64,000 nt of DNA from assembly GCA_910574835.1 (NCBI GenBank), contig CAJTDE010000027.1, forward strand, positions 1-64,000, in the 5' to 3' direction. A model generated the notes under the pieces. The model worked only from the letters and a program-made list of their open reading frames with translations, was not told the DNA's origin and did no database searches. The position numbers and the translations under genes are program-made. The stretch's first letter is position 1. Each line of letters opens with the position of its first letter. Below are positions 3,219 through 26,332 of this stretch, one piece after another. This stretch comes from Clostridia bacterium (GTDB lineage Bacteria > Bacillota > Clostridia > Lachnospirales > Lachnospiraceae).

Positions 3219-3643
3219 GCAATAAATTTTTTGCTGATTCTTTGTTTGTTTCTTACATCTACGGAATACCCTCTAACGAGCGCATTCCGTATATCCAGGG
3301 GGAGTCACTTACACAGGAAATCGTAAATCGCTTGGCAGATCAAATACTTTCTGGAATTGTCTGTTCTGTCCAATTTGACGATGAAACAAAGGAAAATAGT
3401 TTGGCTGCTGATTTTCGGGAGGGATGGTCAACTGTATATATTGTCAAAGAATGTGAGAATTATTATGAGTTTGTAAATGATCAGTTTCCAACTTGTGAAA
3501 CGCAGTTAAATATCACTGGCGATTGGCCTGCTCCCAAAAAACATGCAACCCAGGATTTGCATCTGATGGCAGAAATCATTATACATTTCATGCAAACGGG
3601 AATGGCATATCCAGACTGTACATGGGAGCATACAATCCATTAA
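3215..3643 (+). CDS. Immunity-like protein with lost ATG start
   Basis: The protein is small and acidic with no transmembrane segment and no recognised family, and it sits in the immunity island. The coding frame extends upstream of the first regular start (TTG 3242) to ATA 3215, which lies at the correct distance from GGAGGAA at 3202-3208. The sequence CTATAAGC there would be CTATGAGC, a standard ATGA stop/start overlap, with one G-to-A change. The gene has therefore probably lost its start codon while the upstream stop stayed a stop (TGA to TAA). A shorter product from TTG 3242 (133 aa) remains possible. Confidence 0.45.
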   Translation: MSNKFFADSLFVSYIYGIPSNERIPYIQGESLTQEIVNRLADQILSGIVCSVQFDDETKENSLAADFREGWSTVYIVKECENYYEFVNDQFPTCETQLNITGDWPAPKKHATQDLHLMAEIIIHFMQTGMAYPDCTWEHTIH

Positions 3644-3710
3644 GGCATCAGAAACAATTTGGTTAAAGAAAAAGAACTTCTTTAGTGAATATGGAAGGAA
3701 GTGAAAGCCT

Positions 3711-5602: not shown

Positions 5603-5636
5603 GTATTGGCGGATATTGCATCAAGAACAGTTATAA

Positions 5637-5849
5637 GGTGATGAGGGAGCCGGGTTTTTATGTTCGGAAGATTATGATGTGCAGGGAGGCAAGGCATGGC
5701 AATGGAATGAATGGGAACTGCTCAGCCTGGAGGCCGCAGGAAATTATGAAAAAGATAATCAGCGAGGAGATTCGTTTATAGAAAAGATGAATGTGGAAAC
5801 GCATCTGTTAGACATTGATAAGACCATCTATGGCATTGGGGAGGAATGA
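5637..5849 (+). pseudogene. 3' fragment of an unidentified immunity-island gene
   Basis: The frame opens after TAA 5634-5636, gives about 70 codons and stops at TGA 5847-5849. It contains KAWQWNEWELLSLEAAG and ends TIYGIGEE. There is no start codon near the open end and no ribosome binding site, so it is the remaining tail of a larger gene. Its last bases supply the GGGGAGGA ribosome binding site of the next gene. Confidence 0.35.
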
Positions 5850-5853
5850 AGTC

Positions 5854-7413
5854 ATGAAAAAGGAGCTGTGCTCAGCCAGATTAAAACAAAGAACTGCAAA
5901 GCCGGGAGAGGTATATGCCTTTTATGTGGAAATGCTGGGGAAATACGGCGCCTGCCAGATCCTTGCCGTGGATGGCAAAAGCATTTGCTATGTGCTGCTT
6001 GATTATCTGGAGGATGACCTGCCCGGAGAAGATATACTGGAGCGGTTACAACCGTATCACCGGGAATCCTTCCGGTATCACCATCAGATGATAAAAACAG
6101 GGATTGAAAATACGCCTGTTCCTCGGGATTACCGGTACATAGGCCAGTGCAGCCTTAAAAGCAGTCCTGTATGGGATTCCTACTCCTGGAAGTGGCCCAC
6201 AGGGGAAGATTACTATTATGAAGATCGTTGGAAGTCTTTTGACGAAACCGACAGGTCGGCATACAAAAAAAATATAAACAGCGGCGATTTTGTGTCTATA
6301 CATGGCAGGATGTTCCGAAAGAATACCGGAGGACTGCGGGATGATCTTTACCAATGCCTAACAGAAAAAGATACGTTAGAAGAGTTTCCCTGCATCACCT
6401 ATGCCGAATTGCAGGGGTATTCCGGTAAGCTTCAGAAGCTGCTCTCCACAGCGCCGCTGCTTCGGACACTGCGTCTGCAAAAGGCAGGTGTGGAGGTACT
6501 TGACCTTGGGAAGACCTGCCTGGACAATCTGGAGCTGGATATGAGCGGAATCAGGCAACTGGTACTTCCAAAAGATACCCACTCTCTGAAGCTGTATGGG
6601 AAGATCCGCCCGGAACTGCAGATTGACGACAGCCTTTGCAGTGGGAAACTGACCCTGGAAATATCCTTGAAAAAGGCGCTGCTTCTAAGATACGGACTTC
6701 AAAAAAACCGGGTTTGGAGGCTCCGCCTGACCGACATAAAAGAGCTGGATATGAGGCAGGCGGCCGAACAGTTTCCGGAAGCGGAATATTTAAACATAAG
6801 CGGAGTTCCCGGCACCGTAACCCATATGCAGGAGGCAGGAAAGCTGTCCGGGCTTCGAACCTTTTATTGTAAGGATCTGTTTGGATATGATGAGAGGGAT
6901 ATGGAAGCATTGGAGGGGCTACAGGAACTGCGGGAGCTGGATTTTAACAGCATTCCCAAAGGAGCGGGCCTGTACCTGAAAAAACACTGGAAAGAAAAGC
7001 TGGACAGGCTATGTGTCACCCACCTGCGGGATGAAGGATGGCTTAGGGATAACCTGGAGAACCCGCTCCGCCATTGGGATGGAAACGAGTTCATTCCTGA
7101 GGCGGCATACCGGAGCGCCAGAAAGTGCTATAAAGATACAAAAAAGCTGCTGACGGAGGCGATGGGCAGGGCGGCGGACAGAAAAGAAATCGAAGAGATT
7201 GTCCGCAGGTACACACAATCTTTTAATAAGCTCAATGACCGCTATGAGGAGTTTATCGAGACAGAGGAACGGGAGGAAATCTTTATGGCCATGCGGAGGC
7301 TTTACGAAGAGTGTATCCTGCAAGGAGAATACGGACAGGCGGATGAGAATGCGGCGCCTGTGACGCTTTCGGAGATTTGGAATGTCATGGATGAGGTGCG
7401 GGAGAACTGGTGA
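5854..7413 (+). CDS. Imm26-like immunity protein fused to leucine-rich region, 519 aa
   Basis: The start is ATG 5854, preceded by GGGGAGGA at 5839-5846. The first 60 residues include KPGEVYAFYVEMLGKYGACQ, resembling the Imm26 family opening ('pGdv.a..l..GkyG...il'). Residues about 190-380 are leucine-rich with irregular repeats (TLRLQKAGVEVLDLG, LRTFYCKDLFG, LRELDFNS). The C-terminal 130 residues are highly charged and helical. No signal peptide is present. It fits the polyimmunity proteins of Firmicutes, in which several immunity modules are combined in one polypeptide. The toxin target is unknown. Confidence 0.6.
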   Translation: MKKELCSARLKQRTAKPGEVYAFYVEMLGKYGACQILAVDGKSICYVLLDYLEDDLPGEDILERLQPYHRESFRYHHQMIKTGIENTPVPRDYRYIGQCSLKSSPVWDSYSWKWPTGEDYYYEDRWKSFDETDRSAYKKNINSGDFVSIHGRMFRKNTGGLRDDLYQCLTEKDTLEEFPCITYAELQGYSGKLQKLLSTAPLLRTLRLQKAGVEVLDLGKTCLDNLELDMSGIRQLVLPKDTHSLKLYGKIRPELQIDDSLCSGKLTLEISLKKALLLRYGLQKNRVWRLRLTDIKELDMRQAAEQFPEAEYLNISGVPGTVTHMQEAGKLSGLRTFYCKDLFGYDERDMEALEGLQELRELDFNSIPKGAGLYLKKHWKEKLDRLCVTHLRDEGWLRDNLENPLRHWDGNEFIPEAAYRSARKCYKDTKKLLTEAMGRAADRKEIEEIVRRYTQSFNKLNDRYEEFIETEEREEIFMAMRRLYEECILQGEYGQADENAAPVTLSEIWNVMDEVRENW

Positions 7414-7451
7414 GATATGGTTTAATGCTTGGATGAGGAGGACAGCAGGCA

Positions 7452-7877
7452 ATGAATGACATGTTATTTCAGATAACAAATCCAGGGGTAGAAGAGAAGG
7501 CGATACAACTTTTAGAAGATCAGTTTCATTTTCAAATGTCATGGGACATGAAATCGTTTTATCTGAAACAGAATGGGGCGATTCTGTCTTCTGGTATCAA
7601 GATTGATCCGGAAGCTTGCTCATTGAGTTTTTTTCATCCCATTGACAGGCAGTATCAAATGCATGTTTTGACAATCAATAAGCTTTTAGATTGGAAGAAT
7701 ATGGATGGGTTTATCCCTATGTGCTATATTCCTTTTTGTTCCGATGAGGCGGACGATAGTTATTATATCCGGGTTGATAAAGAAGGATATGGAAAGGTCT
7801 ATTATATTTTCAGTGAATTTCTGGATGAATTTCCGGAAGACCCGGATGGGAATGGCTATATAGCAGGCTGTTTTTAG
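7452..7877 (+). CDS. SMI1/KNR4 (SUKH) family immunity protein, 141 aa
   Basis: A single-domain SUKH protein. WDMKSFYLKQNGAI matches the 'p.dyk.fyl..NG' helix, and FIPICYIPFCS-like sequence (FIPMCYIPFCSDEADDSYY) followed by KVYYIFSEF matches the conserved core strand and helix. The length of about 140 residues is normal for the family. ATG 7452 follows GAGGACAG. It is 14 bp upstream of the following large multidomain gene and is likely co-transcribed with it. No defect is visible, so this is one of the intact immunity genes of the island. Confidence 0.75.
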   Translation: MNDMLFQITNPGVEEKAIQLLEDQFHFQMSWDMKSFYLKQNGAILSSGIKIDPEACSLSFFHPIDRQYQMHVLTINKLLDWKNMDGFIPMCYIPFCSDEADDSYYIRVDKEGYGKVYYIFSEFLDEFPEDPDGNGYIAGCF

Positions 7878-7891
7878 GAGGAGTTTACAGA

Positions 7892-9625
7892 ATGATGAAA
7901 CAGTATGGGATCGATCCAAGGCTTGTGATTTGGATTCAAAGAAACACAGGGCATGATCTGCAGACATTCAGCGATCTGGCGAAAATGAAAAGCCTGGACA
8001 GCAGAAGGAGAAATTTTTCGGCTGCTAGAAAAATAGAGGACATACGTCTTCCTTCCTGGCTCATGGTAAAGGAAAATGATTTTTCTTTAATCGGGGAAAT
8101 GACAAAGCTAAAGCAGCTGTCCCTCCATGATGTGGAGATAGATGACTATTCTTTTTTGGTCAGATGCAGATCTTTAAGTACCCTGGATCTGCAGGATACC
8201 AGCTTTTCAGACTGCCGCCTGCTGGCAGAGCTTCCGGCGCTGAAGAAAGTCCTTCTGCCTCCTTACAGCCAGCTGAAACATACGGAGGTGCTGGAACTGC
8301 TGTTCTGTCTCTGGGAGATAAAAGAAGAAAAAGCAGAAGAACCAAAAGCGGCAGGGCAGCCCTGCGGGGAGAAAACCCCTTCTGAGGGCAGTCCGGCATC
8401 CGGGGAGCCGCTGCATCTGGGAGATACGGCGCATTTGAGTATTGAGGGCATGGGGATTGTCCTGTTTTCTTCGGAGGTTATGAAATCTGTTGTTCCGGGG
8501 AGCGACTTTTTGACAGAAGAATTCACGGATCCGAAACAGGTGGGGGAGCATATCCGGAAAGGGGATATCACGGCTTTCTGTACCGGTACAGGAGGGGAGT
8601 TCATCCTATGGTTCCGGTCCGGCTATCCGGATTCCAATGGGGAGAAAGAGTTTCCGGTGATGATCCGGCTGGCGGTGGAGGTAAGGGGCGGTTCCCTGCA
8701 GTTTGGCGACCTGTTCTGGTTGAATGACTGGAATCCGGATTTCCCACAGGAGCAGATACTATCTCTGCCGGATGGATACTATCATATAACGGTCTGCACG
8801 AAAAAACCGGAATCCGGATACTGGGGGGATGACCAGATCATTTGTCTCTATTTTAATAAATTGGAAGAAATGCCGGAGCTTACATGGCCTGGAGTTCCTT
8901 ACTTGTTTACAGAAGAACAAGAGGCAGAACCGCAAGGAACAGGCACACAGGGACAGAACAAAAGAGACTATATGGAAATGATCCGACAGCTGTATGCGGT
9001 GGAAACGTTGCAGGGTTATACAGATGAAGAGATCACTATCGTAAAAAAATATTTTGACCCATTGCCTTTGACACTGGAGGAATTTTGGAAAAAGGCTGCT
9101 CGCACAGAGGCAATTCATAAGGTACAGGATCAATGGATCAGACCAGAAAATTTTGAGAAATGGGATTGGTTAAGAGATGGCGATTACCTGGTAATTTTAA
9201 TTGAAAATCAGGGATGCTGCCGGGCGGGAATCCGAAGAAAAGATCTGACAAAGGCAGATCCGCCGGTCTATGTGACTGTAGATGATATAAATGGCGAGAA
9301 ATGGACGTTGTGTGCCGGAACATTCAGTGAGTTTCTGCAGGCTGCTCTAGCTTATGAAGCAGTGTTTGCGTTTCCCTTTTATAAAGAAGGGCTTGTTTTT
9401 TGGCTTACAGAAAAGGAAATGGAAATTGTTCAGTCCGGCCTTGAAAAACAACCGTTTGGTCTTCATAGCTGGCTGGAAATGGATATGAGTTTTTACAGCA
9501 ATGCCTCTGACAATATGGCTGTAGTGATGGACTGCGGCGATTTGGAAGTGCTTTATGGAGCTGCCAGTGAGACGGGATACAAGAGGCTTATGGAGGTCAT
9601 GGAGGGAATCGGAGAAACGTTATAA
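7892..9625 (+). CDS. Multidomain polyimmunity-type protein, 577 aa
   Basis: The ATG at 7892 follows TAGGAGGAG. Three parts can be seen. Residues about 45-150 are leucine-rich (LKQLSLHDVEI, LSTLDLQDTSFSDCRLL, LPALKKVLL), clearly paralogous to the end of the 3711-5602 gene. A low-complexity Glu/Pro/Gly linker follows. The central domain (about 180-350) is beta-rich and contains LGDTAHLSIEGMG. The C-terminal part (about 385-577) looks SUKH-like (PLPLTLEEFWKKA, DWLRDGDYLVIL, TFSEFLQAAL). No signal peptide or toxin domain is present. The architecture fits a fused polyimmunity protein that could neutralise more than one toxin type. Confidence 0.6.
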   Translation: MMKQYGIDPRLVIWIQRNTGHDLQTFSDLAKMKSLDSRRRNFSAARKIEDIRLPSWLMVKENDFSLIGEMTKLKQLSLHDVEIDDYSFLVRCRSLSTLDLQDTSFSDCRLLAELPALKKVLLPPYSQLKHTEVLELLFCLWEIKEEKAEEPKAAGQPCGEKTPSEGSPASGEPLHLGDTAHLSIEGMGIVLFSSEVMKSVVPGSDFLTEEFTDPKQVGEHIRKGDITAFCTGTGGEFILWFRSGYPDSNGEKEFPVMIRLAVEVRGGSLQFGDLFWLNDWNPDFPQEQILSLPDGYYHITVCTKKPESGYWGDDQIICLYFNKLEEMPELTWPGVPYLFTEEQEAEPQGTGTQGQNKRDYMEMIRQLYAVETLQGYTDEEITIVKKYFDPLPLTLEEFWKKAARTEAIHKVQDQWIRPENFEKWDWLRDGDYLVILIENQGCCRAGIRRKDLTKADPPVYVTVDDINGEKWTLCAGTFSEFLQAALAYEAVFAFPFYKEGLVFWLTEKEMEIVQSGLEKQPFGLHSWLEMDMSFYSNASDNMAVVMDCGDLEVLYGAASETGYKRLMEVMEGIGETL

Positions 9626-9664
9626 AGCACGGTACAAAGCCAACGATAAGGAGGAATCGGGCAT

Positions 9665-9849
9665 ATGGGACTATCCGGGAAAAAAAGAACCAGAAACAGG
9701 CGCAGCAGGAACAGCAGAAGACGCAAAACGAAATGAAAATATATATTCAGGGAGTCGGAGGAACGATTGTCACAAAATCTATTTTGGAAGGCACTTCAGG
9801 GCTGAAATGGATGTTCCGGCAGGAGAATAAAGATGGGATTTCAGGATGA
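9665..9849 (+). pseudogene. DUF2185-like immunity gene remnant with poly-A frameshift
   Basis: ATG 9665 has a good site (AAGGAGG at 9649-9655). The first codons read MGLSGKK and then leave frame in a run of seven A residues at about 9681. One extra A would join them to QKQAQQEQQKTQNE and to MKIYIQGVGGTIVTKSIL, followed by LKWMFRQENKDGISG. That sequence resembles the N-terminal part of DUF2185/Imm33-type immunity proteins. The joined frame stops at TGA 9847-9849, well short of the usual length. Two lesions, a homopolymer slip and a truncation, mark it as dead. Confidence 0.5.
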
Positions 9850-10705
9850 GATGAAGCATATGTTTCTGCGCATTGCGGTGGGAGATGTAGAACCAGAGGA
9901 GTGGGAAAAATGGTGGAACAGCAATAGGATTAAGCTGGAAGAGACCCTGACCCGTGGAGACAGAGGGCGGATTATGCCCGCTTTATGGAGTGCAAACTAT
10001 TAATGGATGACAAAGACTCAGGGCGGTGGATATGAAGCCATGCTCTGTTATCTCTGTCCCATATATGCCATACAATACGGAATCTTAGGCTTGTCGGGCG
10101 ATATCAGCCAGGGGGAATATTTTCAAAAGATGCGTAATGGGTGGGGCGTGATCCAGTATGGTACGGTAGCTGTGGATGCTGCCACAGTGGAGAGCATCAA
10201 CGGAAAATTTGATGATATCCTGATCTTCCTGGCCGATGGCATGCTGCCGGAGTGGCAGAAGATCGACAGTCTGGAGACTTACTTTGCAAAAGAGCGCCGG
10301 GATTACCTGAAAGCCACAGAGAAAGGCCCAAACGATCCGAGAACTGGCCGGCCTATGTGGAATCTGGATACGGAGGGAAAACCGGATCCCTGGAGAGCGG
10401 ACAGTTATCTGTTTGGCGTATGGGATCTGCTGACCGGAAAGGAAGCAGAAGGATATGTGCGCCTTGAAGAATGCGTGAGACATAATTCTGCTTATATGGA
10501 GGCCCGTCTGAAGGAATTTCCAAATGCCTGCAATGACCCCAGAGACGCCATGGCGGTGATGTACCGTAATGCACAGCTCTTTCTGGGGACAAAGGAGATT
10601 TCGGATACACAAAAACGCAAGAACGCAATCCGGGAGACCTATGAGGAAGTATGCCGGTTCATGCGGTATTACCACAGCCTGGCTAAAAAGACTGAAAGAT
10701 CCTGA
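9833..10705 (+). pseudogene. Hypothetical immunity-island protein, about 290 codons with one in-frame stop
   Basis: ATG 9833 follows GCAGGAGAA. The frame reads 56 codons to TAA 10001-10003 and then continues in the same frame for another 232 codons to 10705. The stop falls in an otherwise smooth acidic, aromatic-rich protein (SANY-stop-WMTKTQGGGY). Re-initiation at ATG 10007 is possible but lacks a ribosome binding site. There is no signal peptide or membrane helix, and I recognise no family. It lies immediately upstream of a short helper-like gene and a DUF4132 gene. Confidence 0.5.
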
Positions 10706-10769
10706 CAACAGGACGTTAAAAGGCCTGTATACAACATAATAAGAATGAAAAGGAAACGGAGATTTTTTG

Positions 10770-10901
10770 ATGATGGACGAGAAAAAAGAGCAGCTTGAAA
10801 AGGTTCGCCGGGCATTCCGGGATCCATACCTACGGGGATGGATTCCGAACTATCTTTTGACAATACTGGAACAGGGGGAGGATACCGAAGATATCCTTTA
10901 A
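10770..10901 (+). CDS. Small acidic/basic protein, 43 aa
   Basis: Two adjacent ATGs (10770 and 10773) follow AACGGAGA. The 43-residue peptide is strongly charged (DEKKEQLEKVRRAFRDPY) with an amphipathic second half. Its stop is 3 bp before the start of the DUF4132 gene, so the two are probably translationally coupled. It may be a small partner or a leftover N-terminus of an adjacent larger protein. Confidence 0.4.
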   Translation: MMDEKKEQLEKVRRAFRDPYLRGWIPNYLLTILEQGEDTEDIL

Positions 10902-10904
10902 AAA

Positions 10905-12581
10905 ATGGAGCAGGTCATGCCAAAGTATTGTGTTCCCCGCAAATTTGAGACGGAGGAACAGCAGAGCCTTGACGAGGGGAGCGAGAAACAGAACGATTGG
11001 AGGAGCCTGCTGTTTGAATTAAGCCCCACTGTCAGGACATTCTGGGCGGAAAAATATAACTGTTATATCAATCCTAATGGGAAATACCAGACGCTTCTGG
11101 GATTTACGGATATGCGGGAACGGTTCCTGCAGGCGTCCCATGAAAGCAGCATGGAGCTCCTCTACTGCACTGGATGGAAGCCGATGGATACCATGTGCGC
11201 TTATCTGCTGGGAATGACCACAAACCGCATGTACAACCTGTCTCCGGATGCAGTCAGGGCCGCTGTCCGAATGGACTGGGAATCGGCAGTCCGCCTTCTT
11301 GACAAAAAAGTGCTGGGAGAGGTGATTGTCCATCATCATTCCTCTTATCAGACGGAATGGCAGAGAATATGGATGGAATTTCTTTATCTGTTCTGTGATT
11401 TTGATGACCGTACATTCCTGCATACAGAACACAAAACAAAAAAATTAAGACAGCAGTGTCAGGTCATCTGCGAAAGGCTGGCGAATCCGGATTATGAGCA
11501 GATGGAACTGGAGAAAGAGCTGCGTGCCTGCGCTCTGCTTCCCGTACAGGAGGAGCTGGACGATGTTTCCGATAAAAAATTCATAAAAAAGCAGAAGGCG
11601 GCTCTTTTGCGTGCCTTTGTCAGCAGCTACTTGTGGCGCTGCTCTGACTGGAAGAACATGAAGGAGCATCCGGCAGGCCGCGCGATGGCACGAAACCTTC
11701 TCTGGGGATATTACCGAAATGGGGAGCTTCAGACTGCGTTTGCTTTAAAAGAAAACGGAAGTGTGCTGGATGGGAAGGGGGAGACCGTTTCTCCGGAATC
11801 TTTCGCTGATGAAACGGGCAAGATCGGGCTGGTGCATCCGGAGGAATTGACAGAAACAGAGCGAAAATTTTGGAAAAAATATGCGGGAAAAGAGAAATGG
11901 AAACAGCCTTTTCCGCAGCTTAAAATACCTGCCTGTCACGGTCAGTATGCTCTTTCAACTTTTACTGGTATACAGGTTACGCAGCTTTTCCTGATTACTG
12001 CCACAGGGAAATGGGGTCTGTATCAGGGGAGCGATAAGAACCAGTATATGTCGTATCATATGGCGGATTTGCTACATGGGTACGGCGCACAGCTTATCTT
12101 TGATGATGAGGTAAAAGCATATAGAAGTAAAGTAGATGAGTGGATCTCCGTCTTTTCTAAACAAAACTATGCTCATATGCAAATGATAGAAGATGATATT
12201 ATAAAAGTCCGGAAAGCGATGAAATTTAAGGGAGTTATAGAAAATATAGGAAAGGTGTGTGCTACCAGTGGGGTGATTGCAATGGCTCTTACGCCATTTT
12301 TGCCGCCAGCGGGTGTGGTTTCTGCAATAGTGACATTCGTTGGTCTTCCAACGGTTTTTTTGATCCAACAAAGTATTATTTGTGGGCTTCGTTTGGGATA
12401 TATGGCAGATAAAAAAGGATGGTTCAATGCATGGGAAGATGGAACAGTGAAGGGCTACTTTTTTAGAACGCTCTCGCCTTGCTATTTACTGCCGGAATTT
12501 CCTTATGCTGAATCTTTTCTTATCACCTCTTTAGCCACTTCTTCATCTCTTTGTGATTTTGTATTGCTAATTGATATATGA
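10905..12581 (+). CDS. Chimeric DUF4132-domain protein, 558 aa
   Basis: Residues about 1-340 resemble the helical N-terminal and central part of DUF4132 proteins, ending in IGLVHPEELTETERKFW and KQPFPQLK, the conserved 'iglvHP.el' and 'QPF.Ql' motifs. The expected remainder of the DUF4132 domain does not follow. From about residue 345 (near base 11,940) the DNA turns AT-rich and the protein becomes different, with a long glycine-containing hydrophobic stretch at about residues 455-505 (VIAMALTPFLPPAGVV, then VGLPTVFLIQQSI). The junction suggests a fusion of two unrelated genes. The role is unknown; DUF4132 proteins often appear in large gene arrays of unclear function. Confidence 0.5.
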   Translation: MEQVMPKYCVPRKFETEEQQSLDEGSEKQNDWRSLLFELSPTVRTFWAEKYNCYINPNGKYQTLLGFTDMRERFLQASHESSMELLYCTGWKPMDTMCAYLLGMTTNRMYNLSPDAVRAAVRMDWESAVRLLDKKVLGEVIVHHHSSYQTEWQRIWMEFLYLFCDFDDRTFLHTEHKTKKLRQQCQVICERLANPDYEQMELEKELRACALLPVQEELDDVSDKKFIKKQKAALLRAFVSSYLWRCSDWKNMKEHPAGRAMARNLLWGYYRNGELQTAFALKENGSVLDGKGETVSPESFADETGKIGLVHPEELTETERKFWKKYAGKEKWKQPFPQLKIPACHGQYALSTFTGIQVTQLFLITATGKWGLYQGSDKNQYMSYHMADLLHGYGAQLIFDDEVKAYRSKVDEWISVFSKQNYAHMQMIEDDIIKVRKAMKFKGVIENIGKVCATSGVIAMALTPFLPPAGVVSAIVTFVGLPTVFLIQQSIICGLRLGYMADKKGWFNAWEDGTVKGYFFRTLSPCYLLPEFPYAESFLITSLATSSSLCDFVLLIDI

Positions 12582-12623
12582 AAGGATGCAATAATAACAA
12601 AACAAAAAGAGAGAGGTGACAAA

Positions 12624-12749
12624 ATGGCAACAAAAAGTGCAAATGTACTCGTCCGTGTTGAATTGGAGATAAAAGAACAAGCAGAATCTATCATGTCCAA
12701 ACTTGGTTTGCCGACTTCTGTTGTGATCAATGCGTTATATAGCTCATGA
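12624..12749 (+). pseudogene. RelB/DinJ-type antitoxin, truncated to 41 aa
   Basis: ATG 12624 follows GAGAGGTGAC. The peptide KSANVLVRVELEIKEQAE, then LGLPTSVVINALY, is the ribbon-helix-helix DNA-binding N-terminus of RelB/DinJ antitoxins, which bind their own operator and their toxin. The usual C-terminal half that wraps the toxin (about 45-50 residues) is missing. The frame runs into the toxin gene and stops at TGA 12747-12749. The protein could still bind DNA as a dimer but should not neutralise a toxin. Confidence 0.65.
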
Positions 12750-13005
12750 ACTGAAAGCGCCGGAAGCAGCCCTTCATCTAATGGATGTACTGGAAGATTC
12801 TTTTAATGCGCTTGCACATTTTCTGCAACGGGTAGCTTTAGTTGATGAAGAGCCTTGGCATACAAATGGAATTCATCGGTTACCAATAAAGAATTTCTTA
12901 GTATATTTTTGGATAGATGAGAATAATAGAAAAGTTCAGATAACTGCTATCATTTATGCAAAACGGGATCAGTTGCGGCAATTATCTCGAATGGATATGG
13001 AATAA
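12730..13005 (+). pseudogene. RelE/ParE-type toxin lacking its N-terminus
   Basis: The 91-aa frame carries RYIAHELKAPEAALHLMDVL, then EPWHTNGIHRLPIKNFLVYFWI and QITAIIYAKRDQ, which match the middle and C-terminal part of RelE/ParE toxins. Family members begin about 10-25 residues earlier with a strand and helix that are absent here. The sequence fuses directly with the truncated antitoxin, so one deletion removed the end of relB and the start of relE. An internal ATG at 12730 remains, without its own ribosome binding site. Toxin activity is doubtful. Confidence 0.65.
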
Positions 13006-13086
13006 CTCTTGAGGGCGTCCCAAAAGCCATGAAATGACCGAGAGCCCCTCCAGAATTTTCATTATGAATAAGCAATTTTAGTTTTG

Positions 13087-14067
13087 TCAAACGTCCTCTG
13101 GATTAATACTATCTAAAGGCTTACCTTCTGTTGGATTATCTTCAAAAATTTCTGCTGTCATCTTCATAAATCTAATATCACAAGTGCTGCCGGATTGAAT
13201 CATACACTCCTCAAGATGATATTTTTTGCATACATAGTTATGAAAAGATAGAGTCCATAAATATTTTTTTATAATATGTTCCTGTGTATTTGCTTCTTTA
13301 ACAGCGGAGATATCTAAATCATCATACTTTCCGTATTTTTTTATTTTTTGGATAATATGCTCTTTGTGTGCCTCCAGACGTTGTTTTTGATTTGGACTGA
13401 GATTACCTAATTTTTGATAATCGCTTGGAGAAATTGTCTTTACGAGTTCCAATGCTTGTTCTTTAAATGGGTGTCCAAGCATTATGTTTATGTCAATACA
13501 ATATAGATAATTTAAAATGACTGTTCCATCAAATGCTTTAAAAATAAGGATATCTTGTAATTGGAAATATAAATTTTCCTGAATGGTATAGGGCATAATA
13601 GCATTGAAAAATGCACGATCATCATTCGAAATATGCTCATTTGCATTTATATGATTTTGAATTTCACAAGCTTTTCTTAACTCCTCCTGCTTTACAAAAT
13701 GAGTCTGTTCAGCATAGTCAATAGCAGCTTGCCCAATAATAATCTGGGGATATATGGCGGTTTCCTCCAATGCCACAGCATCAATCAGACCTTGGCCGAA
13801 AATGAAATCATCATTAAATGAGAGCGTGCCAATTGTTATTCCACCTCGGAGGAATAAATCGTATTTTAAAATAAAGTTTCGTTGTATATCTGCGGTAATA
13901 GCCATAAATGACAAAAAACGTAAACATTCCTTTGAAGTAGAACCTCTTTCTAAACATAATAGAATATTGTCGGAAAACACCTTTACTTGAATATGTATTT
14001 CTCCAAATTCCCCAACAATGGGAGAGGAATGCACTTCCTGTATATAAGCTTTTGTATTTTTTATCAA
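13087..14067 (-). CDS. Nucleotide-cyclase-like protein, probably N-terminally truncated
   Basis: The segment VKVFSDNILLCLE followed by LFLRGGITIGTLSF and FGQGLIDAVALEE resembles a widespread bacterial family related to class III nucleotide cyclases ('FSD.i', 'lRGGi..G', 'fGpal..Ay.lE'). The second metal-binding Asp (FSD) is present. The first metal motif, normally near the N-terminus in a 'D.lGf' context, is not found: the only starts are TTG 14067 or earlier non-standard codons, and the upstream frame closes shortly afterwards. The start region has no clear ribosome binding site. It lies divergent to the NACHT unit; cyclases beside defence effectors recall Pycsar, but the truncation makes activity uncertain. 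Confidence 0.45.
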   Translation of the reverse strand: MIKNTKAYIQEVHSSPIVGEFGEIHIQVKVFSDNILLCLERGSTSKECLRFLSFMAITADIQRNFILKYDLFLRGGITIGTLSFNDDFIFGQGLIDAVALEETAIYPQIIIGQAAIDYAEQTHFVKQEELRKACEIQNHINANEHISNDDRAFFNAIMPYTIQENLYFQLQDILIFKAFDGTVILNYLYCIDINIMLGHPFKEQALELVKTISPSDYQKLGNLSPNQKQRLEAHKEHIIQKIKKYGKYDDLDISAVKEANTQEHIIKKYLWTLSFHNYVCKKYHLEECMIQSGSTCDIRFMKMTAEIFEDNPTEGKPLDSINPEDV

Positions 14068-14226
14068 AGCAGAGAAAATAAATTTTATTATATTAATTAT
14101 AGAAAGAAAATTTTAGGAGACGCAGCATGAAGGCTATCAGCTTAATTTTTATGGGAACTTTACTGTATTTATGGTATGATTAATTTAAGTATAACTTCAT
14201 AAAAATGCTGAAGGGAAGGGCTATAC

Positions 14227-15936
14227 ATGAATATAGATAAATTGAGAGAAGAAATAATTGGAGAGTTAAAAGCAACATATACAGAAAATGATTTAAATAG
14301 CCTTGTTGACCTTTTGGTGAAGGTAATCATATTTCCAACAGATAAAGAAGAATTGTCTGGTATAGAAGATCGCCAATATGCTGCTTTGGAAAAGATTTTT
14401 GATGAAGATTCTCCACTTAGCGAAGTACGATTATGTCTTGCTAATGTATTTAAGATTGAACCTACGCTCAAAAAGATACTTTATATCTCTAATAGCAGTG
14501 CTTATAACGAGGTGCAGAATAAAAGGTTGGGATTAGCAAATGTTATTAAAAAACTGGGGATGAATCCAAATAATAAGAAGCTCGATCTCGATCCGGCCAC
14601 TTATATGGGTGACAAAGATTATATGGAACATATTTCAAGAGCATATGGTTTGAGGAATAGCGAGTCCCACTTATATGAAAGCTGGAATAGAAGAGATATT
14701 TTCTTGAATTTAGACAGTGCATTGATTACATGGTTATGCGCTATAAAGTTCAATAAGAAAAACATACAAATGCAATTAGAGAGTAAAGTTGTTCTTTCCG
14801 AATATGTTATTCAGGAATATCTGAAGATGGTCGTTGAAGAATTTAAAGATCGGATGAAAAGATTTATACACTTAAGAGGCGAGGAGCATCTTGAATTCAT
14901 TGGAGGGATGGCTATTGAACAGGCAAATGAAAAAGATTCCGATAAAGGAAGACTGCGAAAAGGAACGGTAGATAGCTTACGCAGACATTCTGTTCCGGAA
15001 AAAAGAATGATATTGTGGGGGGAAGCAGGAATCGGAAAAAGTACTACATTAGAATACTTAGCGTATGTGGATGCCAAGGCAAGGATTCAAGATAAAGAAT
15101 CTTGTATTCCCATTTTGATTTTACTGGGATTAATGCTTGATGCTAATTATTCTATTAAGCAGTATATATGTGATAAATTGAAAGTTGATATGGAGGAATG
15201 TGATAAATTATTTGTAGCAGGGAATATAAACTTATTTCTTGATGGATTAAATGAGATTCCGTCAGGCGGAGTTGTATCCAATTTAAAGACTATTAGGATG
15301 CGTGAAATACGACAGTTAATGAAATCATACCCGAGATCTTTTATCATTATCACAAACAGGCCGCAGGATAGCAGAGATTTTGATAACATACCGGTGTTCA
15401 ACCTGCAGAAACTGAATGACGAAGAAATTAAACTTTTCCTGGATAGAAATGTTGATGATACTTTAACTAAAAAATGTATCTTAGACACACTTTCAACAGA
15501 TAAAAATTTCAGAAAGATAATAAGGACACCTTTGATTTTATCACGATTAATTGCAACGGTTCGGTATACAAAGCAGGTGCCAATGAGTGAGGGAGAAATA
15601 ATAGGCCAGTTTTTAAAATGTCTTTTTGAACGTGAAAAAAACGAAAAACTTGATGAAAGATTAGATATTCAAAAAATGACTTATTTATTAAGGGGAATAG
15701 CGTTCGAGAGTTTAGAAAACAAAGAAGCAAACTCTGGAATAACAGAGGCAGAAGTAATAAGCTATTGCTCTAAGAGCATGCAAAACTACAGATTTGAATA
15801 TGACGCTTTGTATGCAATTAATATGATGGTTCAGTTGGGGATTCTGGAAAAAAGGGAAAATGTTTATGTGTTTTCCCATCAGGCATATCAGGATTATTAT
15901 TACGGACTTGAGGAATTGGCGGTGTTGCAGTCATGA
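14227..15936 (+). CDS. NACHT-domain STAND NTPase with HEPN-like N-terminal motif, 569 aa
   Basis: ATG 14227 follows GAAGGGAAGGG. Residues 265-272 (GEAGIGKS) form the Walker A loop, and L336-F337-L338-D339 with GLNEI is a NACHT-type Walker B. ITNRPQD at about 378 is the sensor region, and FSHQAYQDYYYG near the end matches the C-terminal NACHT 'F.H.tfqEy' motif. The N-terminal 240 residues are helical and contain RNSESH (143-148), an exact fit to the HEPN ribonuclease RNxxxH pattern. NACHT proteins are oligomerising NTPases; bacterial members act in anti-phage defence. No C-terminal sensor repeats follow; the overlapping next gene may supply that role. The DNA is AT-rich, unlike the flanking core genes. 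Confidence 0.75.
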   Translation: MNIDKLREEIIGELKATYTENDLNSLVDLLVKVIIFPTDKEELSGIEDRQYAALEKIFDEDSPLSEVRLCLANVFKIEPTLKKILYISNSSAYNEVQNKRLGLANVIKKLGMNPNNKKLDLDPATYMGDKDYMEHISRAYGLRNSESHLYESWNRRDIFLNLDSALITWLCAIKFNKKNIQMQLESKVVLSEYVIQEYLKMVVEEFKDRMKRFIHLRGEEHLEFIGGMAIEQANEKDSDKGRLRKGTVDSLRRHSVPEKRMILWGEAGIGKSTTLEYLAYVDAKARIQDKESCIPILILLGLMLDANYSIKQYICDKLKVDMEECDKLFVAGNINLFLDGLNEIPSGGVVSNLKTIRMREIRQLMKSYPRSFIIITNRPQDSRDFDNIPVFNLQKLNDEEIKLFLDRNVDDTLTKKCILDTLSTDKNFRKIIRTPLILSRLIATVRYTKQVPMSEGEIIGQFLKCLFEREKNEKLDERLDIQKMTYLLRGIAFESLENKEANSGITEAEVISYCSKSMQNYRFEYDALYAINMMVQLGILEKRENVYVFSHQAYQDYYYGLEELAVLQS

Positions 15937-17321
15937 CAATGAAGTTTAAAGGTTTAAGACAGAAATGTCTGGACGAAAAATACTATGAAGCACTTAAATA
16001 TATGTCTCATACTTTAACAGGAAGTGACAGAACTTATTTTATCAAACAAATATGCCGGCATAATATTTATCTTGGAGTAATTTGTGCGACAACCTGTGAA
16101 TATGATGAGGTGCTGGATCATTATATAAAAGCAATTCTTAACCATTTTTTTGATGAAAAGCAAATTAGTTATTATGATAAAAAGACAGGAAAAAAATCAA
16201 TCTATACAAAGATACTTGGAAAAAAAGATATTGAGCGTTTTATGTTGGCGTCTTACGAGATTGGTAATTTTAAAGCAATTAAGTGGGTTATTCATAATTA
16301 TACGATAAATATCAATACACTTATAAAGCTTGGACAAAGAGTATCAGATGCAGAATTAGTGGATTTGTTTTATTCAATCAGCAAATCAACAAATCATGAT
16401 AAAATGGAAATCATGTGTAGAATGCGCACAGCTCCATCACAAAAGAATAATGAGCGAGCACAAAGCTTATTAAAATCCTATTGGTATAAGAATAGACAGA
16501 TTTTTACATATCTGGCCGATTCATTTGGCTGGCTGCCTGATTTGGGTAGTAATTATAAATATGGTGAAAGGATTTATGCAAAATGCTTTGAGGGGGCAGA
16601 TAATTCAATCGCATTTAATAATGTTATTATTAATGCTATGGATGTGAATTATCGAGAAGGGCTGGAGCGCTTATTTAGGATTATCGCCAATTATGGTAGT
16701 AGCGAAGTAAAGAAAAACTTATATATGCTTTTTTATATGAAATTGCAAAATAGATTTCCTGTTTATAAAGCTGATTACAAAGCATTAGAAAATGTTCAGG
16801 TTTTGGATAAACGTGAAAAACATTTGGGAATGAAGGTATTACGTGGCATCATTTGTGAAGATTGTTCAGCATGGATAAATGTGTTTGAATTAATTTATTA
16901 TTTTCCTCTGAAAGATAATATGGACATTACATCTAGTACAGATAAGGTTTCTAGAAATATATATCCATTGAATAGGTACTTGGAAGTTTATTCAAACACA
17001 AACTTAAAGAAGGTCGTTTACACATATTTTAATTCAGAGTATAAAGCACGGATATATTTGGATGATTTTGTGATGCTTATTGTGAGCCTCTGCGATGTAA
17101 AAATTATTGACATTTGCAATGCATTAAATGACTTTACCGATATAGGACATGTTTATCAGAGAGGCCCCTTATCGTATTTCAAGCATAATTGGAAGACATT
17201 ACAATATCCGGTTACAGCAGAGAAAGTTCAATTGGGAGAAAAATATCAGATTATATATGAGGACTATGATTATATAGAGCGTAGATTCCATGTTTCTGTT
17301 AAAAAGTTATGTGGCATTTGA
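15933..17321 (+). CDS. Unknown 462-aa partner of the NACHT protein
   Basis: The start overlaps the NACHT stop as ATGA, a sign of translational coupling and of joint function. The protein is soluble, basic and mostly helical, rich in Tyr, Asn and Lys, with repeated short helix pairs (for example DLFYSISKSTNHDK, LFRIIANYGSSEVKK). I recognise no domain. Many NACHT and other STAND proteins carry a C-terminal sensor built from helical repeats; here that part could be a separate polypeptide. This is inference from position and fold-like composition only. Confidence 0.6.
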   Translation: MTMKFKGLRQKCLDEKYYEALKYMSHTLTGSDRTYFIKQICRHNIYLGVICATTCEYDEVLDHYIKAILNHFFDEKQISYYDKKTGKKSIYTKILGKKDIERFMLASYEIGNFKAIKWVIHNYTININTLIKLGQRVSDAELVDLFYSISKSTNHDKMEIMCRMRTAPSQKNNERAQSLLKSYWYKNRQIFTYLADSFGWLPDLGSNYKYGERIYAKCFEGADNSIAFNNVIINAMDVNYREGLERLFRIIANYGSSEVKKNLYMLFYMKLQNRFPVYKADYKALENVQVLDKREKHLGMKVLRGIICEDCSAWINVFELIYYFPLKDNMDITSSTDKVSRNIYPLNRYLEVYSNTNLKKVVYTYFNSEYKARIYLDDFVMLIVSLCDVKIIDICNALNDFTDIGHVYQRGPLSYFKHNWKTLQYPVTAEKVQLGEKYQIIYEDYDYIERRFHVSVKKLCGI

Positions 17322-17355
17322 TTATTAATTATATTGTATCTAAAAGGGGGTAGAC

Positions 17356-18393
17356 ATGAAAACAAAAAAATACACAATAATATTATCCGGGTTGCTAGCC
17401 TTTATTAACATCATATGTCTTTTGATTTTGCAATTTCGTTTATATCACGCTGTTGGAATCTATGGGGATGGAAGCCAAATTTACATAGATATAAGAGAAA
17501 TTCTAATTATAATTACGAGCGGAGTTTTTACAAGTTCATGCGTGGTTTTTATTATTTCGATCCGTGAGTATTTTGATGAGCGAAACAGTGCGTTAAGAAA
17601 TTTGTACCGATTAGTAAGTTATATTGACGAAAAGTATCAACAAATCCATTTCTTTGCATCCATAATTCCAGAAGAAATTATAGGATCTTATCTTACCGAA
17701 AAATATTATTTAAATAGAGATGTGAAAGATTGGCAGGAACTGTTAGCTATCACAGGAAAATCAATACCATCACAATTTTTAGAAAATTTTAAAAAGGCGA
17801 AAATGGCATATCGAGAATCTGTGTGGAAACATGAAGATGATACATTAAAAAAATTATATGATACAGAAGAAATGAGAGAAAAGCATCTTGATAAAAAATG
17901 TGAGGAGATAGAAAAGGAATTTTTAGCAAACACGGAAGAACTTATCAATTCGTTATGCGTAATTAGAGATTTTGATGTATATCAAATTCAAGAGGCGTTT
18001 GATAAGTTGCATTTTTTTATCCATAAAGAGTATAAAGCGATATTGAATGATGCGCTAATAAATTCTACGGTTTCGTTAATAAAGCTAATGAAATATTATT
18101 TAAATTTAGTCTCTACCAGTGAGGGCATACTTATTAATTCATTGGCTGCTGTTAGGGTTATAAATACTATTTCACTTATATATGATGAGACAAGAAATCA
18201 TGCTTATTTAAGGCCGTCATATCAAATTGAGTTAGGAAAAAGATATATCAATAGCATGCGAAATGTGTTTAGGCCTAATATAAAACATATAAAAGCACCA
18301 GAAATTATTAACTTCATAGTTTATCCTCACTATGATGCAAAACAGGATTTTGGAGAAGATATTTTATTTGATTCTTGGGGAATAAAGCGATAA
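17356..18393 (+). CDS. Membrane-anchored helical protein, 345 aa
   Basis: ATG 17356 follows AAAGGGGG. Two N-terminal transmembrane helices (about residues 7-29 and 49-69) are followed by a charged cytosolic part of about 270 residues that is predicted helical from its heptad-like Lys/Glu/Leu pattern. No enzymatic motif is visible. It lies 34 bp after the 462-aa gene and shares its AT-rich composition and direction, so it probably belongs to the same operon. In defence systems a protein of this layout could be a membrane-acting effector or anchor; that is inference. Confidence 0.55.
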   Translation: MKTKKYTIILSGLLAFINIICLLILQFRLYHAVGIYGDGSQIYIDIREILIIITSGVFTSSCVVFIISIREYFDERNSALRNLYRLVSYIDEKYQQIHFFASIIPEEIIGSYLTEKYYLNRDVKDWQELLAITGKSIPSQFLENFKKAKMAYRESVWKHEDDTLKKLYDTEEMREKHLDKKCEEIEKEFLANTEELINSLCVIRDFDVYQIQEAFDKLHFFIHKEYKAILNDALINSTVSLIKLMKYYLNLVSTSEGILINSLAAVRVINTISLIYDETRNHAYLRPSYQIELGKRYINSMRNVFRPNIKHIKAPEIINFIVYPHYDAKQDFGEDILFDSWGIKR

Positions 18394-18537
18394 GGTGAAT
18401 CTAAAAATATAATTTGAGAGGTCACATTTTCTAAAGTATTTATTTTATGAGCAGAATAATTAAATAGTGGTTTAAAAAAGAAAAAAGATAATTATATTGC
18501 AAAAACGGCTAAATAAAAATACGTTAACCTAGAATTA
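18394..18537. other. AT-rich intergenic segment, no gene seen
   Basis: This stretch between the membrane-anchored protein gene and the left end of the IS1380-type element is AT-rich and contains no plausible gene. No clear terminator hairpin was found. The 4-bp TTAA at 18534-18537 is the left copy of the presumed target duplication. Confidence 0.4.
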
Positions 18538-20071
18538 TTCACCGATACACGGTGAAAGCGGCTCAAATTCCCATAGTTACTGTATTTAAACTGTTTATTG
18601 CATTTCATCTATTAAGTGAATAAAAAAGAGCATCCGGTTGTGGTAAAATTAAGGTGTTCAACGTCTTAATAATCTCACAAAGGAGCCCTTTATGAATATT
18701 TTAAACACCTTTACTCTTAAATGCAATAGACAGATGAAAATAAATTTTGACGGAGGCGATTTATCCTCCGATTCAGGACTTCTTCTTATAAAAGAATTCG
18801 CTGCAAAAATCGGCTTTGCAAAGCTGATCAAAAAGAAATTTAAAACCAATGATACGTCGTTCCGTTTCCACAAGGATGACGAAAACCTTATGCAGATGCT
18901 CTGGCATCGCAGCCTACATTATCAAGATTTTTCAACCGTATGAACGAGGATACCCTCACACGGTTCGATGACATTGATAAAAACCTCAGGGATATCATCT
19001 ATTCCATAAAGCCGCCGGAACATATGCTTCTTGACTTGGACAGTACCCTGTTTGGCACTTACGGCAAGCAGGAAGGGGAAGGCTTCAACTTCCATTATCA
19101 GGCACATGGATATCATCCGTTACTGTGCTATGACGGACTGACCGGAGATCTGCTCAAAGCAGAGCTGCGTGACGGAACACTCCACTGCAGCAATGATGCG
19201 GATAAATTTATGGAATCCCTCTTTCAGGAATACATGGAAAGAGAGATAAAAACTTATCTTCGCGGCGACAGCGGATTCTCATCCCCAAAACTTTATAAAA
19301 CCTGTGAGATGAATGGCTGTTCCTATGCCATCCGCTTAAAACAGAATTCTTCACTTATTGCCCTTGCTTCGGATAAAGATGAAGATTTGTACAAAGCATC
19401 CAAAGAGGACCAAATCAGCTATAAAGCAACTTATGGTGAATTTATGTATCAGGCCGGTACATGGGAATATCCAAGACGTGTGGTTTTCAAAATCGAGAAA
19501 CCATACGGCCAGCTTATACACAAGTATACCTTTATCGTGACAAATATGGATATGGATCCCTATCAGATCATTCAGTTTTATTGTGGTCGTGGCAGGATGG
19601 AAAATTTTATCAAGGAAGGCAAAAGCGGGTTTGACTTTGCCGCTGTGAGCAGTCGTTCCAAAATAGTAAATGCCAACCGAATGCGGATTCATATGCTTGC
19701 GTACAACTTATTCAATTGGTTCAGGCGACTGGTACTCCCGGAAAATATGCGAAAGAAACAGGTGGATACCATTCGATTAAAGCTGATAAAGATTGCTGCG
19801 AGAGCAGTCCGTTCAGCAAGATATATCACATTCAAGCTGTGCGGCAGCTGTCCCTATAAAAAGGAATTTTATGAGACACTGGAGAACATCCGGCGACTAA
19901 CCGTACAGTTGGAATAGTAACTATTAAAGTACTTTGACAGTTCAAAATGAATCAGTCGGATTCCATAGGGGTAGTTTACCCATTTTTAAGGATAACTCGA
20001 TTGATTTCAGAAAAACTGGAATAAGGTTTTTGCAGTTCCGAACATTTTATATGTCCGTGAATAATCCGGGG
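18538..20071 (+). mobile_element. IS1380-type insertion sequence, internally deleted
   Basis: The element is bounded by imperfect inverted repeats. The left end begins CCTAGAATTATTCACCG; the right end, read on the minus strand, begins CCCCGGATTATTCACG. It is flanked on both sides by TTAA (18534-18537 and 20072-20075), the 4-bp duplication typical of IS1380 elements. The length of about 1,534 bp is below the usual 1.65 kb because the transposase gene has an internal deletion. A promoter for the transposase should lie in 18,550-18,680. Confidence 0.75.
18692..19917 (+). pseudogene. IS1380-family transposase, deleted and out of frame
   Basis: The first part (18692-18943, ATG after AAGGAGCCC) contains INFDGGDLSSDSGLLLIKEF, the family's N-terminal signature. 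The frame then leaves coding sense near 18,900. The other frame resumes with LASQPTLSRFFNRMNEDTL and continues to 19917 with the DDE-type catalytic segments (DLDSTLFGTYG, YLRGDSGFSS, YCGRGRMENFIKE). The normal sequence of about 45 residues between MQM and LASQ is missing and the join is out of frame. The transposase should be inactive, so this copy can move only in trans. Confidence 0.75.
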
Positions 20072-22654: not shown

Positions 22655-24511
22655 ATGCGATATTTAGGCAGCAAGGTTAGGTTGTTAACTTGCATACAAA
22701 ATGTAATTGATAAATACAACATACAAGGAGAAAATTTTGCAGACCTGTTTTCAGGTACAGGTTGTGTAGGAGATTTCTTTAAGAATAAATACAATGTCAT
22801 TTCAAATGATTTTTTATATTACTCATCTGTAATGAGCAAAGCAAAATTGCTATTTTGTAAAAAACCAGTATTCAGCAATTTCGTAAAGAAATATAATGTG
22901 GATATTTTTGAGTGGCTTAATGCCAAGCAATTTACCCCTAATCAAACATATTTTGTTTATAACAATTATACTCCGGCAGGAGACAGAATGTTTTTTACGG
23001 AAGAAAACGGAATAAAGATTGATGGCATTAGACAAACGATTGAAGAATTACTTTTGGAAGATGTGATTGATAATAATGAGTATTTGTATCTGTTAGCCTC
23101 TTTATTAGAGAGCGTTACTCGTTTTTCCAATACATCAGGGACTTATGAAGCTTTTTTTAAATTTTGGGATTCGAGGGCAATAAATGATTTTATCATTGAA
23201 CCTTTGGCTATGAATGAAACAGAGGATACACTAAAACACACTTTTTATAGTGAAGATACAAATCAGTTGGTAAGAAGGATTGAAGGAGATATTGCTTATA
23301 TTGACCCACCATATACTGTTACTCAATATGTGTCGGCTTATCACTTTCTGGAAACTCTTGCAAAATATGATGCACCTAAGATAAAAGGTGTAGGAGGAAA
23401 AAGAGAACGTGGTGACAAAAATTCTCTTTATGCAAGAAGGTTTGAAGCAAAAGCACAGTTTGAGGATTTATTCCGACAACTGCAATTTAGATATATAATT
23501 ATTAGTTACAGCAACCAAGGGTTGGTGCCGTTAGAGGAACTAGTAGAACTGGCGAAACGTTTTGCTATAAACAATGATGTGTATATAGAACACTTTGACT
23601 ATAGAGAATATCAAAATCATCGTTCAAGCAATAAACGAAATGGTAAAAACTTAAACGAAGTAATTATCTATTTTGAAAAAGATTTAGCCATCAACAAATC
23701 ACCATTAAACTATTCTGGCAGTAAAGATACTATGCTTAGAGCAATTACCTGTGAGTTGCCTGCAGCAGTGGGAACGTTTGTTGATGTCATGGGTGGAGCT
23801 TTCAATGTTGGTGCAAATATAGTAGCTACTGATGCAGTGTATTATAATGAGATTGATAGCCGAATTTTTGGAATCATCAATTGGTTAACACAAGAAAATA
23901 AATCCAATATTGTTGCAGAAGTTGAAAAATGCATTTCAGAATATGGATTGGGAAAAGGTTTAGAGGAACCATATCGTGTTTTACGTGATGCTTATAATCA
24001 AGCGGGAGGTTGTATTGAACTTTTTGTATTGCATATGTATGCATTCCAAAATCTTATACGTTTTAATGGGAATCAGAAGTTCAATACACCAATAGGGGTT
24101 GCGGGTTATAGTGACGACATGAAGCGAAGAATTGAAAATTTCATTCCGAAAACAAAACGTGTTATTATGAGTAACCGAGATTATGTTGATATAGATTGGG
24201 CCTCTTTCCCTAAAGACTCTGTTTTTTATTTTGACCCACCTTATTATATAACAAATGCTGCGTATAACGATGGCAAGCGCGGTGGTAAAGGGTGGTCTAT
24301 AAAAGAAGAATTAGAGTTGTTGGATATTTTGTCAAGACTCAATGAAAATGGTTATAAATTCATGCTGTCTAATGTTGTTGAGCATAAAGGAAAGCAACAC
24401 GAAATTTTGCTGAATTGGGTAAAAGAATATGGTTTCATCATGGTTGAAGCAGGGATTTCAGGATGGCGCTATGCAAAGAATGAAGTAATAATTAAAAACT
24501 ATGTGAGGTGA
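22655..24511 (+). CDS. Bifunctional tandem adenine-specific DNA methyltransferase, 618 aa
   Basis: Two D12-class (Dam-like) N6-adenine methylases are fused. The first has MRYLGSKVRLL at its start, FADLFSGTGCVG (SAM-binding motif I) near residue 29 and IDPPYT near 216. The second has LNYSGSKDTMLRAI near 350, FVDVMGGAFNVG (motif I) near 373 and FDPPYY near 525. Each half has both motifs, so both should be active. Fused methylases of this type (M.FokI, M.LlaI) modify the two strands of an asymmetric site. Here it protects host DNA from the McrBC-like restriction genes that follow. The ATG follows AGGAGGAC and the stop overlaps the next gene. Confidence 0.85.
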   Translation: MRYLGSKVRLLTCIQNVIDKYNIQGENFADLFSGTGCVGDFFKNKYNVISNDFLYYSSVMSKAKLLFCKKPVFSNFVKKYNVDIFEWLNAKQFTPNQTYFVYNNYTPAGDRMFFTEENGIKIDGIRQTIEELLLEDVIDNNEYLYLLASLLESVTRFSNTSGTYEAFFKFWDSRAINDFIIEPLAMNETEDTLKHTFYSEDTNQLVRRIEGDIAYIDPPYTVTQYVSAYHFLETLAKYDAPKIKGVGGKRERGDKNSLYARRFEAKAQFEDLFRQLQFRYIIISYSNQGLVPLEELVELAKRFAINNDVYIEHFDYREYQNHRSSNKRNGKNLNEVIIYFEKDLAINKSPLNYSGSKDTMLRAITCELPAAVGTFVDVMGGAFNVGANIVATDAVYYNEIDSRIFGIINWLTQENKSNIVAEVEKCISEYGLGKGLEEPYRVLRDAYNQAGGCIELFVLHMYAFQNLIRFNGNQKFNTPIGVAGYSDDMKRRIENFIPKTKRVIMSNRDYVDIDWASFPKDSVFYFDPPYYITNAAYNDGKRGGKGWSIKEELELLDILSRLNENGYKFMLSNVVEHKGKQHEILLNWVKEYGFIMVEAGISGWRYAKNEVIIKNYVR

Positions 24512-25341
24512 GGAATGTGGAACATAGGCTGATTTTTTCATCCGAATTAGAGGAAAAACTAAAAAATGTCACTGGCGAAACAAAACAGGCATGGAAAGAT
24601 ATTGGTGCCAGTTCTTATTTGGAACTGATGGAATGTTGTATCGGAAAGTTAAATGACTCATACCCAAAACTAAATATAGTGTCCTTTTCATTTCATGAAG
24701 ATATTCAGGTGTATGGTCAATCAAATACATATTTTGGTTTAATCAAAAACGAGGATAATGTGCTGTTAGCGTACGTGTTCGTTATTCCGCCAAAATACGA
24801 AACACGTTCAGGAGTATTGGCACAGCAAGTATTCCCCGTATTATCGGGTATCACTCCAGAATTAAGAGCTTCAAAGGATATCAGAATAAATAATCGTCCT
24901 ATTTTTATTGTTAATTTGAATGAGGCAAACTTAACAGCTTCTGTTGCAGTAAATATAAAAAGCGGTACGGTTTTGGGCTTTAACTATATCGATGTATATG
25001 ACCGAGACATCGAAGAAATATTGCTGTCAAATGGAATAAATCCGACAGTTCGTTCCTTGAAAGACTATGAAAGGATGGTGGCAAAAGTCAATAAGTCGGG
25101 TGTTAATGAGTTTTTTAAGGTGGATGCTTTAGGCAAAACGATTACTTTTCTGACTATTAGACTTAAGGATGGTATTCATGTCAATAATGAACCTTATTGG
25201 TTTGCATTAAAAGCGTATGCGGCGCTTTATCTGGCTAAAAATGAAGGTTATTCGTGTGACATGAACATAATGAATCAGTTGAGCCGCGGTAACAAAACGT
25301 TAGATGCATTTCGTGATTTTGTAGAGAAAACAGAAATGTAG
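24508..25341 (+). CDS. LlaI.1-like restriction operon protein, unknown fold
   Basis: The 277-aa protein starts at GTG 24508, overlapping the methylase stop by 4 bp (GTG 24517 is an alternative). No known catalytic motif is visible and there is no signal peptide. By position between a tandem methylase and an McrB-like ATPase it corresponds to the first restriction gene of LlaI-type operons. It may be the DNA- or site-recognition subunit of the nuclease complex, by inference only. Confidence 0.6.
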   Translation: MRNVEHRLIFSSELEEKLKNVTGETKQAWKDIGASSYLELMECCIGKLNDSYPKLNIVSFSFHEDIQVYGQSNTYFGLIKNEDNVLLAYVFVIPPKYETRSGVLAQQVFPVLSGITPELRASKDIRINNRPIFIVNLNEANLTASVAVNIKSGTVLGFNYIDVYDRDIEEILLSNGINPTVRSLKDYERMVAKVNKSGVNEFFKVDALGKTITFLTIRLKDGIHVNNEPYWFALKAYAALYLAKNEGYSCDMNIMNQLSRGNKTLDAFRDFVEKTEM

Positions 25342-25351
25342 GAGGATAAAA

Positions 25352-26302: not shown

Positions 26303-26332
26303 TGATTGGGAAAGAAGGAAGGAGGTGCCTTC

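Follow-up and report, generated by a model that had tools for sequence, protein, structure and literature searches.

STAND proteins normally carry their sensor after the NACHT and winged-helix part of the chain, and how bacterial NACHT proteins sense phages is largely open. Among the closest described systems, the bNACHTs treated in PMC12169576 (e.g., bNACHT25) end in SNaCT or NCH1 within one polypeptide and, in clade 6, have a PD-(D/E)XK DNase. Fusions of HEPN to STAND have also been described from bacteria, and TPR and S1 or cold-shock-like OB ends occur in some of them (PMC3710099); the combination of HEPN with STAND is therefore not new. In conflict systems, STAND proteins hetero-multimerise with an inactive STAND protein that carries GT4 or HEPN (PMC8195603). 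Here we analyze a 64,000-nucleotide stretch of a Lachnospiraceae genome (Clostridia bacterium, assembly GCA_910574835.1, contig CAJTDE010000027.1, positions 1–64,000 of the forward strand; hereafter the window), in which a NACHT gene (gene 1) overlaps a gene for a helical protein (gene 2). This rare overlapping pair in a gut bacterium probably serves phage defence, and is a rare variant of bacterial NACHT/STAND defence made of two genes, not of the three proposed in an initial annotation.

Gene 1 (14227..15936, + strand) is an open reading frame of 569 aa comprising an N-terminal helical domain, NACHT and a winged-helix-like end, and gene 2 (15933..17321, + strand) is one of 462 aa for an unrecognised, mainly helical partner. 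The two share an ATGA stop–start overlap (15933..15936, + strand), the ATG of gene 2 beginning at 15933 and the TGA stop of gene 1 occupying 15934–15936. Residues 260–404 of gene 1 match Pfam NACHT PF05729 (E 3.8e-8; score 33.8 bits, cut-off 26.7); together with Walker A GEAGIGKS (residues 265–272; 15019..15042, + strand) and Walker B LFLDGLNE, read from the translation (residues 336–343; 15232..15255, + strand), this places the protein in the NACHT clade of STAND NTPases. The gene 1 profile aligns with NLRP5 over 257–561 (E 0.0016), which, judged from sequence, points to a helical/winged-helix region after the NTPase. The chain stops 310 residues after the NACHT start, and a C-terminal sensor of the kind seen in bNACHT proteins was not found in it; the sole Pfam match behind NACHT is nSTAND_NTPase4 (511–558), below cut-off at E 1.1. 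Since gene 1 ends after the NLRP5-aligned region, the usual STAND sensor is missing, and gene 2 becomes the obvious candidate for it. Among 30 NACHT-match loci of the family, a distance of less than 400 residues from NACHT start to protein end was seen in three, of which L029 is an offset artefact, and L050 and L053 read as a CpaF-like ATPase and a RadA-like protein, neither of them NACHT.

Gene 2 is recognised by no searched library above its cut-off. Up to E 10 it matches no family of Pfam or PADLOC; NCBIfam and PHROG yield only weak matches, and a NACHT match, a Walker A match and R[NDH]xxxH are all absent. One weaker hydrophobic segment lies at about 374–398, and its AlphaFold model, too weak for a fold search (mean predicted local distance difference test score, pLDDT, 46.1), contains helix pairs in 11–160 with block pLDDT of 46–80. 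Aligned with 12 of this genome's 14 S1 matches, an end that looked S1-like by eye gave an hhalign probability of 0.2, and an S1/OB end is consequently not claimed. Four further matches were set aside as chance: HepT PDB chains (E 0.12; gene 2 having no R[NDH]xxxH), NCBIfam NF053857 (E 0.002, scoring 17.5 bits where the cut-off is 450), phrog_11747, a family without known function (E 0.022), and AsnC_trans_reg2 with a C-terminal piece (E 0.037). Because gene 1 stops just after the NACHT and winged-helix-like region, a partner acting in trans as the sensor is the best reading that we can infer. The proposal in the initial annotation that the sensor is a separate polypeptide is thus plausible as far as the truncated gene 1 chain goes, and we consider a sensor or activator role for gene 2 slightly favoured.

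The conservation of the pair was examined with a scan of genome contigs for gene 1, in which 53 pattern matches yielded a single true relative, L005, a contig of a Lachnospiraceae metagenome-assembled genome; the scan requires an exact 8-residue peptide, so that it would miss more distant relatives. Compared with the window, the L005 proteins are 78% (gene 1) and 60% (gene 2) identical, and the ATGA overlap is kept (L005 9707–9710). In a blastn comparison of window positions 12000–20000 with L005, similarity starts exactly at the gene 1 start codon and covers 14227–16784 and 16954–17077, with none upstream and none in the gene that follows the pair in the window. Gene 2 adjoins a NACHT gene in both loci, the only two in the set. 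Gene 2 changes faster: nonsynonymous divergence (dN) between the two genomes reaches 0.32 in it, compared with 0.17 in gene 1; dS was undefined (-1) in this comparison, hence no dN/dS is given. Faster change of gene 2 is as expected if it faces a changing ligand, and rapid change is frequent in sensors; a structural subunit could behave in the same way. That genes 1 and 2 form one unit is, in our judgement, very likely.

The pair is rare; the samples searched overlap, and the window's own genome is included in every count. Gene 1 matched in 3 of 98 relatives, in two of which the match is confined to the NACHT region, and gene 2, among 397 family genomes, in that of the window alone. With profiles, gene 2 was found in 2 of 391 genomes of the class (the second reads as a chance match to a methyltransferase), the N-terminal domain of gene 1 in 3 of 391 (one other reads as chemoreceptor-like), and gene 1 in 1 of 264 phylum genomes. 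The weak genome matches L006 (methyltransferase-like), L008 (chemoreceptor-like), L012 (flagellar-export-like, E 5.8e-4) and L013 were read as chance. Gene 2 had no match in plasmids or phages at an E limit of 1, and scans of viral contigs found no relative of gene 1, gene 2 or the gene behind them. NACHT as such is widespread in the family (at E 1e-4 in 52 of 260 genomes, over the cut-off in 30), and plasmid and phage NACHT matches align to gene 1 over about 251–562 only.

Both copies of the pair lie near other defence genes. In L005 the pair stands directly between PDC-S14/type I restriction-modification (R-M) genes and ZacABC (HsdR type I 1199.7 bits, PDC-S14 335.2, ZacA 286.8, ZacB 471.8, ZacC 1062). 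In the window an R-M operon (22655–27592) follows 4.3 kb downstream, encoding a fused Dam-like methyltransferase, an unknown 277-aa protein, a McrB-like AAA protein and a McrC-like protein; the last, identified by reading, matches PADLOC REase_II (E 1.8e-8). These two different neighbourhoods support a defence role by association, not as proof, and we regard such a role for the pair as likely. The low G+C content near an R-M operon noted in the initial annotation was borne out (gene 1 34.3%, gene 2 31.2% and the following gene 30.0%, against 45.1% in 1–13000 and 48.7% in 28000–64000). Neither gene of the pair matches a PADLOC family in the window, and annotation of the PADLOC type would thus overlook the unit; L005 gene 1 weakly matches PADLOC mad8 over the NACHT region (E 0.0072).

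The N-terminal domain of gene 1 carries RNSESH at residues 143–148 (14653..14670, + strand), an exact instance of the HEPN-type RNxxxH pattern and of the HEPN Rx4-6H motif with a polar residue after R, and hence a candidate RNase site; in L005 it reads RNSEAH, with R, N and H kept. R[NDH]xxxH was found before Walker A in none of 32 other loci (the 30 NACHT-match loci plus L002 and L003, of which at least two, L050 and L053, read as non-NACHT) and behind it in four; nor was it found before the NACHT domain in any of the six plasmid NACHT records examined out of 13. Among 20,000 shuffles of gene 1 residues 1–255, RNxxxH arose in 368, R[NDH]xxxH in 889 and, with looser spacing, R[NDH]x3-5H in 2,446, which makes the motif suggestive, not proof. 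HEPN is the best single guess for the presumed N-terminal effector, as judged from this motif, and whether the domain is an active HEPN RNase we put at an even chance.

Set beside the described systems, the pair resembles the bNACHTs in its central NACHT, N-terminal effector position and phage-defence context, and departs from them in that gene 1 has no C-terminal sensor in its chain and is overlapped by a second gene; the SNaCT and NCH1 ends and the PD-(D/E)XK nuclease are unmatched in the pair (PMC12169576). With the HEPN–STAND fusions, compared by description only, it shares a putative HEPN domain preceding the STAND NTPase and a helical region after it, here in gene 2; those proteins, in contrast, are single-polypeptide fusions, and the S1 end that some of them have could not be demonstrated here (PMC3710099). 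The multi-gene STAND systems likewise keep STAND and partner on separate chains, with HEPN among the effectors, but there the partner is an inactive STAND, unlike gene 2 (PMC8195603). Gene 1 also has a weak match to EruA (NCBIfam NF058535, a model of 1318 positions) over residues 387–475, with E 0.0052 and 14.9 bits, far below the cut-off of 1000. In the available parts of PMC13092281, PMC9122126, PMC10853773, PMC7159879 and PMC8195603, no NACHT gene was met whose sensor is encoded by a second gene that is not itself a STAND; this literature is open-licence, so we do not claim the composition as unpublished.

We tentatively favour a two-gene, NLR-like NACHT–STAND anti-phage unit, in which gene 2 would be the sensor and gene 1 the effector, perhaps through HEPN. 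The genes, the NACHT domain, the conservation of the pair with its overlap and motif across two genomes and the defence genes close by in both are observed; from them we infer that gene 2 senses, that the proteins oligomerise and act as an RNase, and that the outcome is anti-phage, as follows. The helical gene 2 protein would sense an infection signal and bind gene 1; binding would cause the NACHT module to exchange nucleotide and oligomerise, bringing the N-terminal domains of gene 1 together. These domains, if HEPN as RNSESH suggests, would pair up to form an active RNase, which would stop growth or cut phage RNA. In its most specific form, a split NLR whose sensorless HEPN–NACHT switch and effector chain is turned on in trans by a helical sensor protein translated together with it, the scheme is rather doubtful. 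If it is true, sensor and executioner could be tested apart as purified proteins, and the natural split between an NTPase/effector and a faster-changing partner would make sensing, oligomerisation and killing separately testable.

Several observations weigh against the favoured explanation. The conservation of the pair rests on two genomes, and both the binding of gene 2 to gene 1 and its sensing are predictions. The motif has a chance frequency of 2–4%, or 12% with looser spacing, and gene 1 has no HEPN family match in Pfam (E≤10), PADLOC, NCBIfam or PHROGs, which leaves the HEPN assignment of the initial annotation with its exact motif, kept in the relative, and no family match. No PDB chain matches the N-terminal profile at E≤10. 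The motif block 128–157 shows no more conservation than other parts of the N-terminal domain (permutation fraction 0.23, two sequences; the best of any window in the same test was 0.46), and the AlphaFold check for a HEPN fold around 143–148, proposed with that assignment, gave an AF2 model of gene 1 too poor to judge the fold (mean pLDDT 39.5). The same chance frequencies and missing family match suit a possible alternative, to which we give less credence: a two-gene NACHT unit whose effector is part of gene 2 or recruited by it, or in which gene 2 keeps gene 1 in check as an antitoxin would, while the N-terminal helical domain is only an adaptor and RNSESH a coincidence. Gene 2 has no recognised domain, so either role is possible for it, and translational coupling would fit toxin–antitoxin-like control too. 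In other NACHT defence proteins, however, it is typically an N-terminal effector that is activated (PMC13092281), and RNSESH, with R, N and H retained in L005, occupies that very position. A host regulatory STAND protein with a partner, engaged in MalT-like signalling and not in defence, is very improbable: STAND proteins such as MalT can regulate transcription (PMC10427625), but the pair is very rare and patchy, its R-M and Zac neighbours are defence genes, and its G+C content is low against the flanks.

The gene that follows the pair, gene 3 (17356..18393, + strand; 345 aa), bears on the remaining alternative, the true three-gene system of the initial annotation with gene 3 as membrane effector or anchor. 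The three open reading frames, the overlap, the Walker and RNSESH motifs and the 34-bp gap between genes 2 and 3 all lie where that annotation placed them, and the predicted helical two-transmembrane protein was recovered, with two strong hydrophobic segments (best windows 7–25 and 49–67) and a marginal one from 257. Gene 3 is on the same strand with a similarly low G+C content, and a scan of the + strand of 13800–18800 found no terminator-like site; the promoter scan count was at about shuffle level (32 against 26.5, standard deviation 4.8). Yet a tblastn search of L005 with gene 3 finds nothing at E 0.01, so that gene 3 accompanies the pair in one of two loci; since L005 keeps genes 1 and 2 without it, the conserved module is the two genes, and the genome comparison proposed as a check does not find the three together in the one near relative. 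At E 0.01, gene 3 matches in 5 of 195 relatives: its own genome, L011/L015 and three weak ones. The L011/L015 homologue covers residues 2–317 at 24% identity (E 2.3e-4), or 26% over 231 columns in a direct single comparison with L015 (E 2e-11). As read from translations, this two-transmembrane homologue (L015 7674–8642) directly follows HsdS-like and HsdM-like genes and ends a type I R-M operon; L015 has no NACHT gene among its ten open reading frames of at least 150 aa and no tblastn match of gene 1. Gene 3, adjacent to the unit and probably not part of it, is therefore more readily understood as an accessory protein of its own within a defence island, and the three-gene system is improbable.

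Near the gene-3-like protein, L015 also encodes a PDC-S19 protein with RHEIEH (4322–5512). In L005, ZacABC occupies 11180–17702 right behind the NACHT pair, and ZacC runs past the end of the locus. In the window, two overlapping open reading frames directly after gene 3 (18692–18943 and 18940–19917) encode a DDE transposase (Pfam PF13701), which we take to be of the IS1380 family, and separate the unit from the R-M operon. Upstream of the low-G+C stretch, 10905–12581 encodes a 558-aa protein with a DUF4132 match. Farther downstream, the − strand of 49307–55839 encodes an alanine racemase, an acyltransferase, a VanY-type carboxypeptidase, a D-Ala-D-Ala ligase family protein and, by reading of the translations, a kinase/regulator pair, a set that presumably resembles the vanG type.

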